Shown here piece after piece: positions 16,139 through 19,939 of a stretch of 21,308 nucleotides of DNA. The stretch comes from a virus, in IMG/VR virus record IMGVR_UViG_3300006924_000253, positions 1 through 21,308 of that record, one strand, 5' to 3'. Each line of letters starts with the position of its first letter. Position 1 is the stretch's first letter. The notes under the pieces were generated by a model, which was not told the origin of the DNA, did no database searches, and saw only the letters and a program-made list of their open reading frames with translations. The position numbers and the translations under genes were made by a program.

Positions 16139-16348
16139 CTAAAAGTCTACAAGTTCATCCAAGTAATCGGGCTCTAATCCGAAGTGATCATAGCAAATGT
16201 CATAGGCTAGGTGAAGATTTTCTAGACCTCCGCTATTGAGTATTTCCTCAAGCTCCGCTTTCGCTTCACTCTTTAAGGCTTCCGCCTCGCTTCTACTTAT
16301 ACCGTCACGCTTCATTAGCGTTTCTACGATTGGCTTTCTTTGCCACAT
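16139..16348 (-). CDS. First gene of the leftward operon, small conserved-type phage protein
   Basis: A 69-aa protein with KRDGISRSEAEALKSEAKAE, then DICYDHFGLEPDYLDELVDF. I recall the pattern RDGIS..EAE...EA..EL...GLEPDYLDEL from small proteins in many unrelated phages; no function is known. AAAGGAAAA lies upstream of the ATG. It is the promoter-proximal gene of the leftward arm, about 80 nt from the predicted start site at 16431, so it would be among the first proteins made from that promoter. Confidence 0.82.
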   Translation of the reverse strand: MWQRKPIVETLMKRDGISRSEAEALKSEAKAELEEILNSGGLENLHLAYDICYDHFGLEPDYLDELVDF

Positions 16349-16365
16349 TTGTTTTCCTTTCGTTA

Positions 16366-16387
16366 ATGCTTAACTAATTTTAAGCAT
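16366..16387. repeat. Perfect hairpin ATGCTTAA/TTAAGCAT
   Basis: An 8-bp perfect stem (16366-16373 with 16380-16387) closes a 6-nt loop, just upstream of the ribosome site of the first leftward gene. It would lie in the 5' leader of leftward transcripts. The word TTAATGCT recurs at 16432-16439. Confidence 0.7.
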
Positions 16388-16391
16388 ACAG

Positions 16392-16431
16392 GAGCAACCT
16401 AAGCAAAGCGTGATGCCTTGCTCGGTTGCTC
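16392..16431 (-). promoter_or_regulatory. Stem-loop at predicted 5' end of the leftward mRNA
   Basis: GAGCAACC (16392-16399) pairs with GGTTGCTC (16424-16431), and inside it AGCAA (16401-16405) pairs with TTGCT (16418-16422). On the minus strand the outer stem begins at 16431, the base where transcription from the TTTACA-N17-TAGCAT element should start. It is a likely mRNA-stabilising or regulatory 5' hairpin. Confidence 0.65.
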
Positions 16432-16434
16432 TTA

Positions 16435-16463
16435 ATGCTAAAAAGTAAACACTTAAGTGTAAA
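16435..16463 (-). promoter_or_regulatory. Candidate leftward promoter with overlapping palindrome
   Basis: On the minus strand TTTACA (16463-16458), a 17-nt spacer, then TAGCAT (16440-16435): five and four matches to sigma70 consensus. The perfect palindrome ACACTTAAGTGT (16449-16460) covers the inner half of the -35 and the start of the spacer, the usual place for a repressor operator. The repressor is not identified. Confidence 0.5.
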
Positions 16464-16502
16464 CAGCTCGCAACCTATCCGCTTTAAAGCTCGGACTCAG
16501 TA

Positions 16503-16565
16503 TTGAGAATGAGCGCCAGTTCAAATCCTGTGTAAGTTCATCACCTACTTTGAACCGAATCTCAA
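16503..16565. repeat. Nested inverted repeat (three levels)
   Basis: TTGAGA/TCTCAA (16503-16508, 16560-16565) encloses GTTCAAA/TTTGAAC (16519-16525, 16549-16555), which encloses GTG/CAC. In RNA of either strand this makes a long interrupted stem. The GTTCAAATCC inside resembles a tRNA T-loop, but its flanks do not pair as a T-arm. Confidence 0.65.
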
Positions 16566-16610
16566 CAATCCCTTGCAAATTCAGCTTGTAAGACTTATTG
16601 CAATAAAACC

Positions 16611-16650
16611 ACGGTTCGACCTTATAACTTCATAAGGCTAGTGGAACCGT
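16611..16650. repeat. Nested hairpin ACGGTTC-CCTTAT/ATAAGG-GAACCGT
   Basis: ACGGTTC (16611-16617) pairs with GAACCGT (16644-16650); inside, CCTTAT (16620-16625) pairs with ATAAGG (16632-16637) around a 6-nt loop. All 13 pairs are perfect. It forms part of the structured block and lies outside any gene. Confidence 0.7.
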
Positions 16651-16703
16651 TTCGGAATATATCTTTCCCGCGTTTCGAAGATTTCCCGTCAATCTACAAG
16701 CTC

Positions 16704-16806
16704 CGCTTTCGCGGCATCTTAACGCTATTTTGAAGGCTAAGACCCGCCCTAAGTTTAAGAGCCCGCCCTTGCGATTCGCTCTAAGTGACACTCCCCTTTG
16801 CAAGGG
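16704..16806. repeat. Short hairpins and CCCGCCCT direct repeats
   Basis: CCGC-TTTC-GCGG lies near 16705-16716 (a GAAA tetraloop on the minus strand), CCCGCCCT occurs twice (near 16743 and 16772), and CCCTT-TGC-AAGGG spans 16794-16806. This part is clearly more GC-rich than the AT-rich promoter part to its right. Confidence 0.6.
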
Positions 16807-16852
16807 CATATCCGCTTAAGACAAAACCACTAAGAGATACCAGAAAACCAGA

Positions 16853-16868
16853 GTCAAGCGATTTTTTC
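16853..16868 (+). repeat. Left arm of a 16-bp perfect inverted repeat
   Basis: GTCAAGCGATTTTTTC is the exact reverse complement of 17150-17165. A shorter copy, GTCAAGCGA, occurs at 16939-16947. Read on the minus strand, this arm supplies a TTGACT -35-like box. Confidence 0.85.
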
Positions 16869-16899
16869 GAAAAAGTGAAAAAAAGTTTTTATGCACCAT

Positions 16900-16927
16900 T
16901 TGACAAAATTTCGGCATATGGTATACT
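16900..16927 (+). promoter_or_regulatory. Strong rightward promoter P1
   Basis: TTGACA (16900-16905), a 16-nt spacer, then TATACT (16922-16927): perfect -35 and a one-mismatch -10. The start would be near 16934. The minus strand carries its own TTGACA at 16943-16938 with only a weak -10 (CATATG), so an overlapping divergent promoter is possible but not well supported. Confidence 0.7.
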
Positions 16928-17149
16928 TGAAAAACAATGTCAAGCGAAAAAGTGAAAAATCGTTTTCAAGACTTTTAGATACCAGCATACCAGTAGGGTA
17001 TACAAAATAGATTTAAAGGGCATATAAGAGGCTGAAAAGGACATTCAAAGGGTACCATTAAAAGAGGGTAGAAATATATTCGCAAAGGCAGAAATAAAGA
17101 TTGACTCGATAAGAGAATCTGATATTTGAAAGACCGACGAAAAAAAGTT

Positions 17150-17165
17150 GAAAAAATCGCTTGAC
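17150..17165 (-). repeat. Right arm of the 16-bp inverted repeat
   Basis: GAAAAAATCGCTTGAC, exact inverse of 16853-16868; its last five bases are the first five of the -35 box of promoter P2. Confidence 0.85.
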
Positions 17166-17189
17166 AAGTCTCAAACGGTATGCTATAAT
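17161..17189 (+). promoter_or_regulatory. Perfect-consensus promoter P2 for the terminase arm
   Basis: TTGACA (17161-17166), exactly 17 nt, then TATAAT (17184-17189), with TG one base before the -10 (extended -10). Every element matches the bacterial sigma70 consensus. The predicted start is at or near the G-tract G6-A-G5 (17196-17207), about 135 nt upstream of the small terminase candidate. Confidence 0.88.
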
Positions 17190-17248
17190 CCGACTGGGGG
17201 GAGGGGGTTATAACAGCGATTCGCGTCGCACGTGTATTATCATAAACT

Positions 17249-17282
17249 ACCCCTTTAAAAATTATGCAACTCAAGGGGTTTT
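17249..17282 (+). terminator. Attenuator-like hairpin in the terminase leader
   Basis: ACCCCTT (17249-17255) pairs with AAGGGGT (17273-17279), a 7-bp stem with a 17-nt loop, and the transcript continues with four U's counted from 17279. The upstream GGGGT (17204-17208) can pair with the same ACCCC. The two folds exclude each other, the layout of an attenuator. Stem and U-run are short, so termination would be partial at best. Confidence 0.4.
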
Positions 17283-17331
17283 ACTGTACATATTGCTTGA
17301 CATAATTATAATAATATGCAATAAGAATAAT

Positions 17332-18297: not shown

Positions 18298-19939
18298 GTT
18301 TACTGAACATCCCCTTCTGACTCCTCCTACAGCAGAGGAAATTGTCTGGCTGTACGAGAACGACCTTAATCTTCTTAAAGAGCTGCACAAGGCTCATGAG
18401 AGCAGGATTAAGGCATCTGAGGACGATCCTATCCGTCATGGGTTTAATCTACCTGGATGGGAGCGAATAAAGGATGGGTTGCAGGATTACAATGAGTGCT
18501 TGGTTCTTGGTGGTAACAGATCAGGAAAGACTACAGGATTTGCTAAGATCGTAATGGAAGCAGTGACTGAAAGCAATGATGGTCACTTAGTATGCTTTTC
18601 CCAGAACGAAGATACTTCCATTAAGGTGCAGCAAGCAGCTATATGGGAGATGATGCCTAAGGAGTTCAAGAAGAAGACTAAGAGCATCGAGGGGTACATT
18701 AATTACAGTATGCAGAACGGGTTCACTGCTAAGAGCTTTATCTTTCCTGATACCCGTACCCGTGTAGACTTCAAGACGTACACGCAGTACAGCAACAACC
18801 AGACTATCTTAGAGGGCTTTGAGTTCGGTTTTCCTGATGCTAAGGGCTTGAACATAGGTGCGTGGTTAGATGAGTACCTAGGCGATGCTTCATTAGTAAA
18901 TACCCTTAGGTTCCGACTGGCTACTAGGGACGCCAAGATGGGTATAGGCTTCACTCCTATTGATGGTTATACTCCCTTTGTGGCAGAGTACTTAAAGGAC
19001 GTAGAGACGCTACAGACACGTCATGGTGCATTGATAGATAAGGAAGTGCCTATTAAGCAGTACAGCCCATCTAGAGACGCATCAGTGGTGTACTTGCACT
19101 CAGATGAGAATCCCTTTGGTGGTTATGAGCGTATAGCTAAAGACCTTAGAGGCAGACCAGAAGAAGAGATACTAGTTCGTGCTTACGGGATACCCGTTAA
19201 GAGCATGACTTCTTTGTTGCCCTTGTTTAACACTGAGGTGAACGTATTGAGTGACGAGCCAAATAAGTACGGCATGACCTTTCCTGACATATCTGATCAG
19301 CACAGGTACACTTGTTATCAGGTAGTTGACCCAGCAGGAGCCAGGAATTATGTAGCGATATGGGCAGGAGTAAACGAAAAGGGAGATGTGTACATTCGGA
19401 AGGAGTGGCCTGATAGGGACTACTACGGAGAGTGGGCTGTATTCGGTGATCCTAAGTGGCGTTATGGGCCAGCATCAAAGAAGATAGGTTACAACGTACA
19501 GGGATACGTTGATCTGTTTGAGGAAATAGAGGATGACATTGAGATAGAGGTATTTGAGCGTATAGGTGACAGTAGGTACTTCGCTAAGGAGAACTCCGAC
19601 AATGATGACCTGTTTACTGAGTTCGATGATTGCGGAATGACTTTTATTCCGTCCGATGGGAGAATGGAAGAGATAGGCATTAGTGCTATAGATGAGTGGT
19701 TCAGCTACAACCCTAACGTGCCAATAGATTCTGCTAACAGACCACGGTGCTACATACATGAGGACTGCGGTAACCTTATAGACTCTTTAATTAACTACAA
19801 CGCTTCAGGCAAGGCTGATGAGCCGTTAAAGGACTTCTTCGACATTATTCGTTATTTGCGAATGGCGAATGGAGGCGATGGCCCTGACCACGTTCTTTCC
19901 AGAAACATGATGACAACCCGCATAGGATCAGGATATTAG
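18293..19939 (+). CDS. terL: Terminase large subunit
   Basis: The frame has Walker A GGNRSGKTT, Walker B IGAWLDE about 115 residues on, and an RNase H-like nuclease half with VVDPAGARN, FGDPKWRYG and a late DEPLKDFFDIIRYLR. TerL powers DNA packaging with ATP and cuts the genome at the portal. The first standard start codon is a TTG at 18479, only 10 residues before Walker A. The frame is open from 18281, and the upstream 62 codons look coding (EEIVWLYENDLNLLKELHKA; HGFNLPGWERIKDGLQDYNE), as needed for a normal TerL adenine-binding N-terminus. No ATG, GTG or TTG exists there. I place the start at ATT 18293, overlapping the previous TAA, giving 548 aa; ATA 18290, CTG 18317 or frameshifting from the previous gene are alternatives. 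Identity is very sure, start is not. Confidence 0.93.
   Translation: MKFTEHPLLTPPTAEEIVWLYENDLNLLKELHKAHESRIKASEDDPIRHGFNLPGWERIKDGLQDYNECLVLGGNRSGKTTGFAKIVMEAVTESNDGHLVCFSQNEDTSIKVQQAAIWEMMPKEFKKKTKSIEGYINYSMQNGFTAKSFIFPDTRTRVDFKTYTQYSNNQTILEGFEFGFPDAKGLNIGAWLDEYLGDASLVNTLRFRLATRDAKMGIGFTPIDGYTPFVAEYLKDVETLQTRHGALIDKEVPIKQYSPSRDASVVYLHSDENPFGGYERIAKDLRGRPEEEILVRAYGIPVKSMTSLLPLFNTEVNVLSDEPNKYGMTFPDISDQHRYTCYQVVDPAGARNYVAIWAGVNEKGDVYIRKEWPDRDYYGEWAVFGDPKWRYGPASKKIGYNVQGYVDLFEEIEDDIEIEVFERIGDSRYFAKENSDNDDLFTEFDDCGMTFIPSDGRMEEIGISAIDEWFSYNPNVPIDSANRPRCYIHEDCGNLIDSLINYNASGKADEPLKDFFDIIRYLRMANGGDGPDHVLSRNMMTTRIGSGY

Follow-up and report, generated by a model that had tools for sequence, protein, structure and literature searches.

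Evidence for a large structured RNA with exchangeable 5' domains at the head of a viral early operon

The comparison of related virus records indicated that the minus strand from 16824 to 16378 of a 21,308-base virus record (IMGVR_UViG_3300006924_000253, positions 1 to 21,308; this whole stretch of DNA is called the window) almost certainly specifies a large structured RNA whose fold is under selection. The RNA heads the early operon, close relatives occur with and without this cassette, and its domains are exchangeable. To our knowledge, phage RNAs of comparable size are few, and what even the best-studied ones, GOLLD and ROOL, do is still poorly understood.

Results

The early genes of the window run leftward from 16348 in an operon of roughly 9 kb, and the late genes run rightward from about 17,300, with the terminase large subunit gene at 18479. 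Phage C75C1 was the only close annotated relative (terminase identity, 76%). A search of genome contigs with the terminase yielded no bacterial genome relative or prophage, and a search with the mini-tmRNA 3' end yielded no host. The tag-less mini-tmRNA concerned (70-99 nt; tRNA-like domain only, with a CCA end) lies within the plus-strand reading frame immediately upstream of the terminase in related records (Table 1), and the window's copy of this gene is without it. In E. coli, a CDS-less tmRNA from phage DS6A is reported to inhibit the endogenous tmRNA (PMC11915505). Elsewhere in the window, a protein encoded at 818-2662 on the plus strand includes an extended stretch in which Asp/Thr/Ile/Val repeats alternate.

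A preliminary description of the window, made from its letters, had reported at least seven stems in the gene-free region 16366-16806, and an inverted-repeat search located the listed stems at those places. The upper bound of the region had to be moved, as the structured unit begins at about 16824 and not at 16806; the main long-range pairings, namely the closing helix and the further helix of form A in Table 1, were missed by the plain inverted-repeat list. When the minus strand of 16366-16834 was folded as RNA, the MFE was -155.7, whereas shuffled sequences averaged -128.5 (z -4.8; 0/100 shuffles as low), and the plus strand gave z -3.9 against shuffles. The folding of the class 1 alignment against column-shuffled alignments resulted in z -11.3 for the minus strand and -6.3 for the plus strand. 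The absence of a gene was confirmed, since the longest frames shift between homologs and the homologs differ by 1- and 2-nt indels; a coding role of the RNA region was rejected on these grounds.

The description had also mentioned no tRNA and no known RNA family, in agreement with our data: the window contains no tRNA genes and no match to Rfam 15 at the gathering score, and relaxing the cut-off to E 10 added only weak, chance-level matches. In six homologous loci, the RNA region likewise had no Rfam match. A weak full-length alignment to freshwater-2 (RF02980), also of a cis-regulatory type, at 16346-16420 on the minus strand was rejected as chance (18.3 bits vs. a gathering score of 49.9; E 4.5). 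The DNA similarity of the region and its relatives to annotated phages and plasmids amounted to nothing, or to weak matches of ~40 nt with E of 0.1 or worse.

Terminase searches, together with searches for the first early protein and for DNA patterns, identified a homologous RNA in 11 other viral records, in addition to L004 and L083, which are identical to the window in the RNA region and were not counted. Class 1 (the window, L022, L142, L137, L125, and L146) combines a 5' domain A with a 3' domain X; class 2 (L085, L115, L164, and L157) combines a 5' domain B with domain X where visible, the L157 record being cut off within domain B; and class 3 (L026 and L151) combines domain B with a 3' domain Y. 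A terminal element T closes the RNA in every full-length member; no copy of this element was found in Phage C75C1. The alignments therefore contain two unrelated forms of the 5' domain, swapped over a shared 3' part. A covariance search for distant members in the available loci and 50 whole records returned only the known members.

Covariance searches showed that the RNA is absent from L006, L007, L009, L011, L013, L016, L017, L021, and L027. L026, which has the RNA, and L027, which carries a short leader in its place, are 88% identical across the promoter zone and diverge where the RNA starts. Because these two records differ in the RNA and the searches found none in the relatives listed, the RNA is an optional cassette. 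The gene that follows it varies: the window has one of 69 aa, L026, L151, and L164 have one of 63 aa, and L022 and L146 have inserted genes. Whichever gene comes next, the RNA precedes the early genes in every member in which the downstream flank is present.

The fold was evaluated by covariation in four domains. In domain A, 98.1% of 258 cells were paired and 9 pairs showed double changes; the corresponding values were 98.1% of 259 cells and 10 pairs in the X core, 97.0% of 200 cells and 11 pairs in element T, and 99.3% of cells and 9 pairs in domain B. Neither the paired-cell share nor the covariation score was reached after the letters were shuffled (0/500 in all four). Pairing fell to 28-60% when the partners were slid by 1-3 columns. 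This comparison is biased towards the named structures, as they were derived from the same alignments; the test with L164 described below is free of that bias. One domain A hairpin reads AGAGC/GCUCU, GGAAC/GUUCC, GAAGC/GCUUC, GAAAC/GUUUC, or AGCAC/GUGCU across the members, and GNRA tetraloops are kept while stems change, as from CCGC-GAAA-GCGG to CCCU-GAAA-AGGG.

The L164 record was found only after the models R1 (element T) and R3 (domain B) had been built. It matched R3 with E 9.8e-28 and R1 with E 4.8e-20, and none of the 63 model pairs (25 in R1 and 38 in R3) was broken. Compared with individual other members, both sides had changed in 3-11 pairs of R1 and 7-8 pairs of R3. In its element T, GCAACC-GAGC/GCUU-A-GGUUGC is replaced by GCAAGC-GGGU/ACCC-A-GCUUGC, and the bulged A is retained. 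The wider X domain of L164 fitted more poorly, as 10 of the 68 pairs of the structure predicted without L164 were not kept; most of this misfit probably falls within a hairpin of which there are two forms.

The possibility that the stems arose by chance in a promoter region, or are remains of a gene, was considered, as some of the listed stems are short. However, no shuffle reached the covariation score in any domain, the independent L164 fits the models, and reading frames are not kept. This explanation is ruled out by the covariation, and we give it practically no weight.

The minus strand is the folded one, since at variable pairs the structures derived from it contain 85 G-U cells but only 4 A-C cells; the plus-derived structures contain 9 and 16, respectively. 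The alignment folding scores were better for the minus strand in each domain, and the retained GNRA loops (GCAA and GAAA) sit on this strand. The preliminary description had taken GAAA tetraloops on the minus strand as a hint of a minus-strand RNA and had named, among the conditions that would refute its proposal, homologs of unrelated sequence without compensatory changes in the stems. The homologs keep the stems through compensatory changes, GNRA loops are retained while their stems change, and the G-U pairs are minus-specific, all of which strongly support the suggested RNA.

Two switch-like pairings were rejected. The hairpin 16366..16387 is missing from L022 and L142 in the alignment and therefore lies outside the conserved core, which also rules it out as a general switch partner. 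For the pairing of UAGGUUGC (16477-16470) with an arm of the terminal hairpin, the L164 hairpin now reads GCAAGC/GCUUGC and the upstream copy is unchanged. A candidate pairing of GCUUGU with GCGAGC or ACAAGC, which would close the 3' domain over a long range, shows no variation in most members and is weaker in L164.

Table 1. Positions of the RNA, its parts, and neighbouring features (window coordinates unless a record is named).
Feature	Position	Strand	Description or basis
Structured leader RNA, class 1 (predicted)	16378..16824, read 16824 down to about 16378	-	Alifold z -11.3, covariation, covariance-model matches
5' domain form A	16703..16824	-	Covariation
Form A closing helix	16824-16815/16753-16744	-	
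Form A GNRA hairpin	16812-16802/16797-16787	-	Loop GCAA
Form A hairpin	16782-16778/16762-16758	-	Compensatory change in 4/5 pairs
Form A helix	16743-16734/16726-16716	-	
Form A GNRA hairpin	16714-16711/16706-16703	-	Loop GAAA
3' domain form X, core	16565..16703	-	Covariation
X core hairpin	16695-16691/16683-16679	-	GACNGG loop
X core hairpin	16670-16666/16657-16653	-	AAGAUAUA loop
X core stem	16650-16644/16617-16611	-	
X core helix	16610-16598/16578-16567	-	
Nested three-level hairpin of 3' domain	16503..16565	-	Two sequence forms among homologs (alignments A5, A17)
Terminal element T	16378..16445	-	Flanking stem, internal loop, 17-bp hairpin with bulged A; covariation, model R1 matches
Small hairpin	16366..16387	-	Immediately 5' of the first early gene's ribosome-binding site (AAAGGAAAAC)
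Stem	16366-16373/16380-16387		8 bp, perfect; inverted-repeat search
Stem	16392-16399/16424-16431		8 bp, perfect; inverted-repeat search
Stem	16510-16525/16549-16564		16 nt, 75%; inverted-repeat search
Stem	16611-16620/16641-16650		90%; inverted-repeat search
Stem	16765-16772/16800-16807		8 bp, perfect; inverted-repeat search
CCGC-TTTC-GCGG	16703-16714		
Palindrome ACACTTAAGTGT	16449-16460		Read from sequence
Palindrome GCTTTAAAGC	16481-16490		Read from sequence
Putative promoter-like site	16829..16857	-	TTGACT, 17 nt, CTTAGT (weak -10); read from sequence
First early gene 3' of the RNA	16139..16348	-	69 aa, no known family
Promoter of divergent late genes, sigma-70-type consensus	17161..17189	+	TTGACA-17-TATAAT, 12/12
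Mini-tmRNA	L022:2626-2722	+	
Mini-tmRNA	L085:1102-1198	-	
Mini-tmRNA	L137:3419-3488	+	
Mini-tmRNA	L026:3720-3789	+	
Mini-tmRNA	L125:158-227	-	
Mini-tmRNA	L009:5473-5542	+	Also present at some 20 other loci

The RNA sits immediately 3' of the promoter-like site and 5' of the first early gene. Transcription from this site would begin near 16822, among the first base pairs of the closing helix. In most members of classes 1 and 2, a TTGAC site lies 29-30 nt ahead of the first pair of the closing helix, which is the spacing expected from a -35 box to the start site; the class 3 members are without it. In the divergent promoter zone (16837-17003), CGCTTGAC and GGTATAC-like motifs are repeated in both orientations and are possibly operator or promoter elements. 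On the plus strand, 17196-17285 contains GGGGGGAGGGGG followed by CATAAACYRCCCCUUU..CUCAAGGGG; it is kept in nearly all aligned relatives, even where the preceding promoter differs, and is recognisable in Phage C75C1. This element is a possible cos site or late leader. Between 7000 and 17000, 10 of 12 terminator-like sites lie on the plus strand, antisense to the early genes.

Discussion

Our best guess, a tentative one, is that the RNA functions as a leader that modifies RNA polymerase in cis. It would stand at the 5' end of the early transcript and act on the polymerase that transcribed it through antitermination or pause suppression, like lambda nut or HK022 put sites, so that transcription would reach the end of the early operon. 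The interchangeable 5' domains may represent alternative contact modules. We favour this role because of the position of the RNA, its boxA-like strings, and the proximity of the promoter. At its start, form B carries the boxA-like GTTCTTTGAATTTT, which three of the four aligned members share exactly and from which the fourth differs by one base; boxA-like strings also occur in form A (CTCTTA) and in the short leaders (GCTCTTT). However, the RNA is about 450 nt long compared with about 70 nt for put, the boxA likeness extends over only 6-9 nt, and the scan for intrinsic terminators on the minus strand of the early operon gave, apart from the terminal site (7314), a single weak internal one (10523). 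The poor -10 hexamer (CTTAGT) and the lack of the TTGAC site in class 3 also count against a cis-acting leader, as does the divergent plus-strand leader, which showed nothing comparable, whereas nut and put sites occur in pairs.

Nearly as likely is a stable trans-acting RNA, a large phage ncRNA that would be cut from the early transcript at the terminal hairpin and bind host factors; it might be an ornate RNA comparable to GOLLD or ROOL. Its size, elaborate fold, and optional presence are consistent with such a role, as are the exchange of whole 5' domains over a common 3' part and its independence of any single downstream gene. Nevertheless, it does not form a separate promoter-terminator unit, no U-run follows the terminal hairpin, the ribosome-binding site of the first gene lies closely 3' of this hairpin, and the window has neither tRNA genes nor an Rfam match to GOLLD or ROOL. 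Control of the translation or stability of the early mRNA by a 5' untranslated region, as an RNase barrier, an RNase III site, or a regulator-binding site, appears rather unlikely. Long double-stranded leader hairpins can be RNase III or protective features, and in the window the ribosome-binding site lies within about 30 nt of the terminal hairpin; yet the RNA is much larger than usual for such elements, the hairpin beside the ribosome-binding site is absent in L022 and L142, and the following genes are of different kinds.

The preliminary description had left the choice between a structured RNA and a replication origin. The former has been retained as a minus-strand RNA, and for the latter nothing was found beyond a cumulative GC-skew minimum just upstream, near 16,900-17,000. 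This minimum coincides with the switch in gene direction, and divergent transcription alone can explain it, so the GC-skew check did not bear out an origin. Structured primers such as ColE1 RNA II exist, and an RNA primer for an origin was also considered; but the region has no DnaA-box-like sites, close relatives are without the whole element, and the selection acts on RNA-type G-U pairs. An origin or its primer is thus very improbable.

In broader terms, the RNA could conceivably be a device acting on the host, at the polymerase, the ribosome, or a defence system, and represent a new large modular class in which unrelated 5' domains are exchanged on a common 3' part and the cassette is gained and lost between close phages; we put this forward with reserve. 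Since the cassette is optional, its domains are exchangeable, and it stands at the head of the operon, the role of the RNA can be tested by comparisons with and without it and by domain swaps.

Among known systems, HK022 put and boxA leaders offer the closest candidate parallels in function, and GOLLD and ROOL come nearest in character; the RNA is not assigned to any of them. HK022 putL is located just downstream of its early promoter (PMC9378689), and put likewise folds near the promoter end of an early phage transcript. Each put RNA has about 70 nt and two stem-loops (PMC9378689), and put occurs in both early leaders, whereas the present RNA is about 450 nt, multi-domain, and found in one leader; in these respects it differs from the put type. 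With lambda nut and rrn leaders, it shares the leader position, candidate boxA-like strings (CTCTTA, GTTCTTTGA), and GNRA-capped hairpins, but the boxA likeness is short, the form B string is paired in the closing helix, and no protein resembling N was identified. GOLLD and ROOL are likewise large, elaborate, and phage-borne, and GOLLD has a conserved 3' part and a variable 5' part, as does the present RNA. The present RNA is, however, smaller, lies in an early leader rather than near tRNA genes, and is predicted from sequence; the Rfam covariance models of GOLLD and ROOL matched neither the window nor the six homologous loci. Judged against Rfam 15 and the open-access literature searched, it appears to form a new family of structured phage RNAs, unusual for its exchangeable 5' domains.
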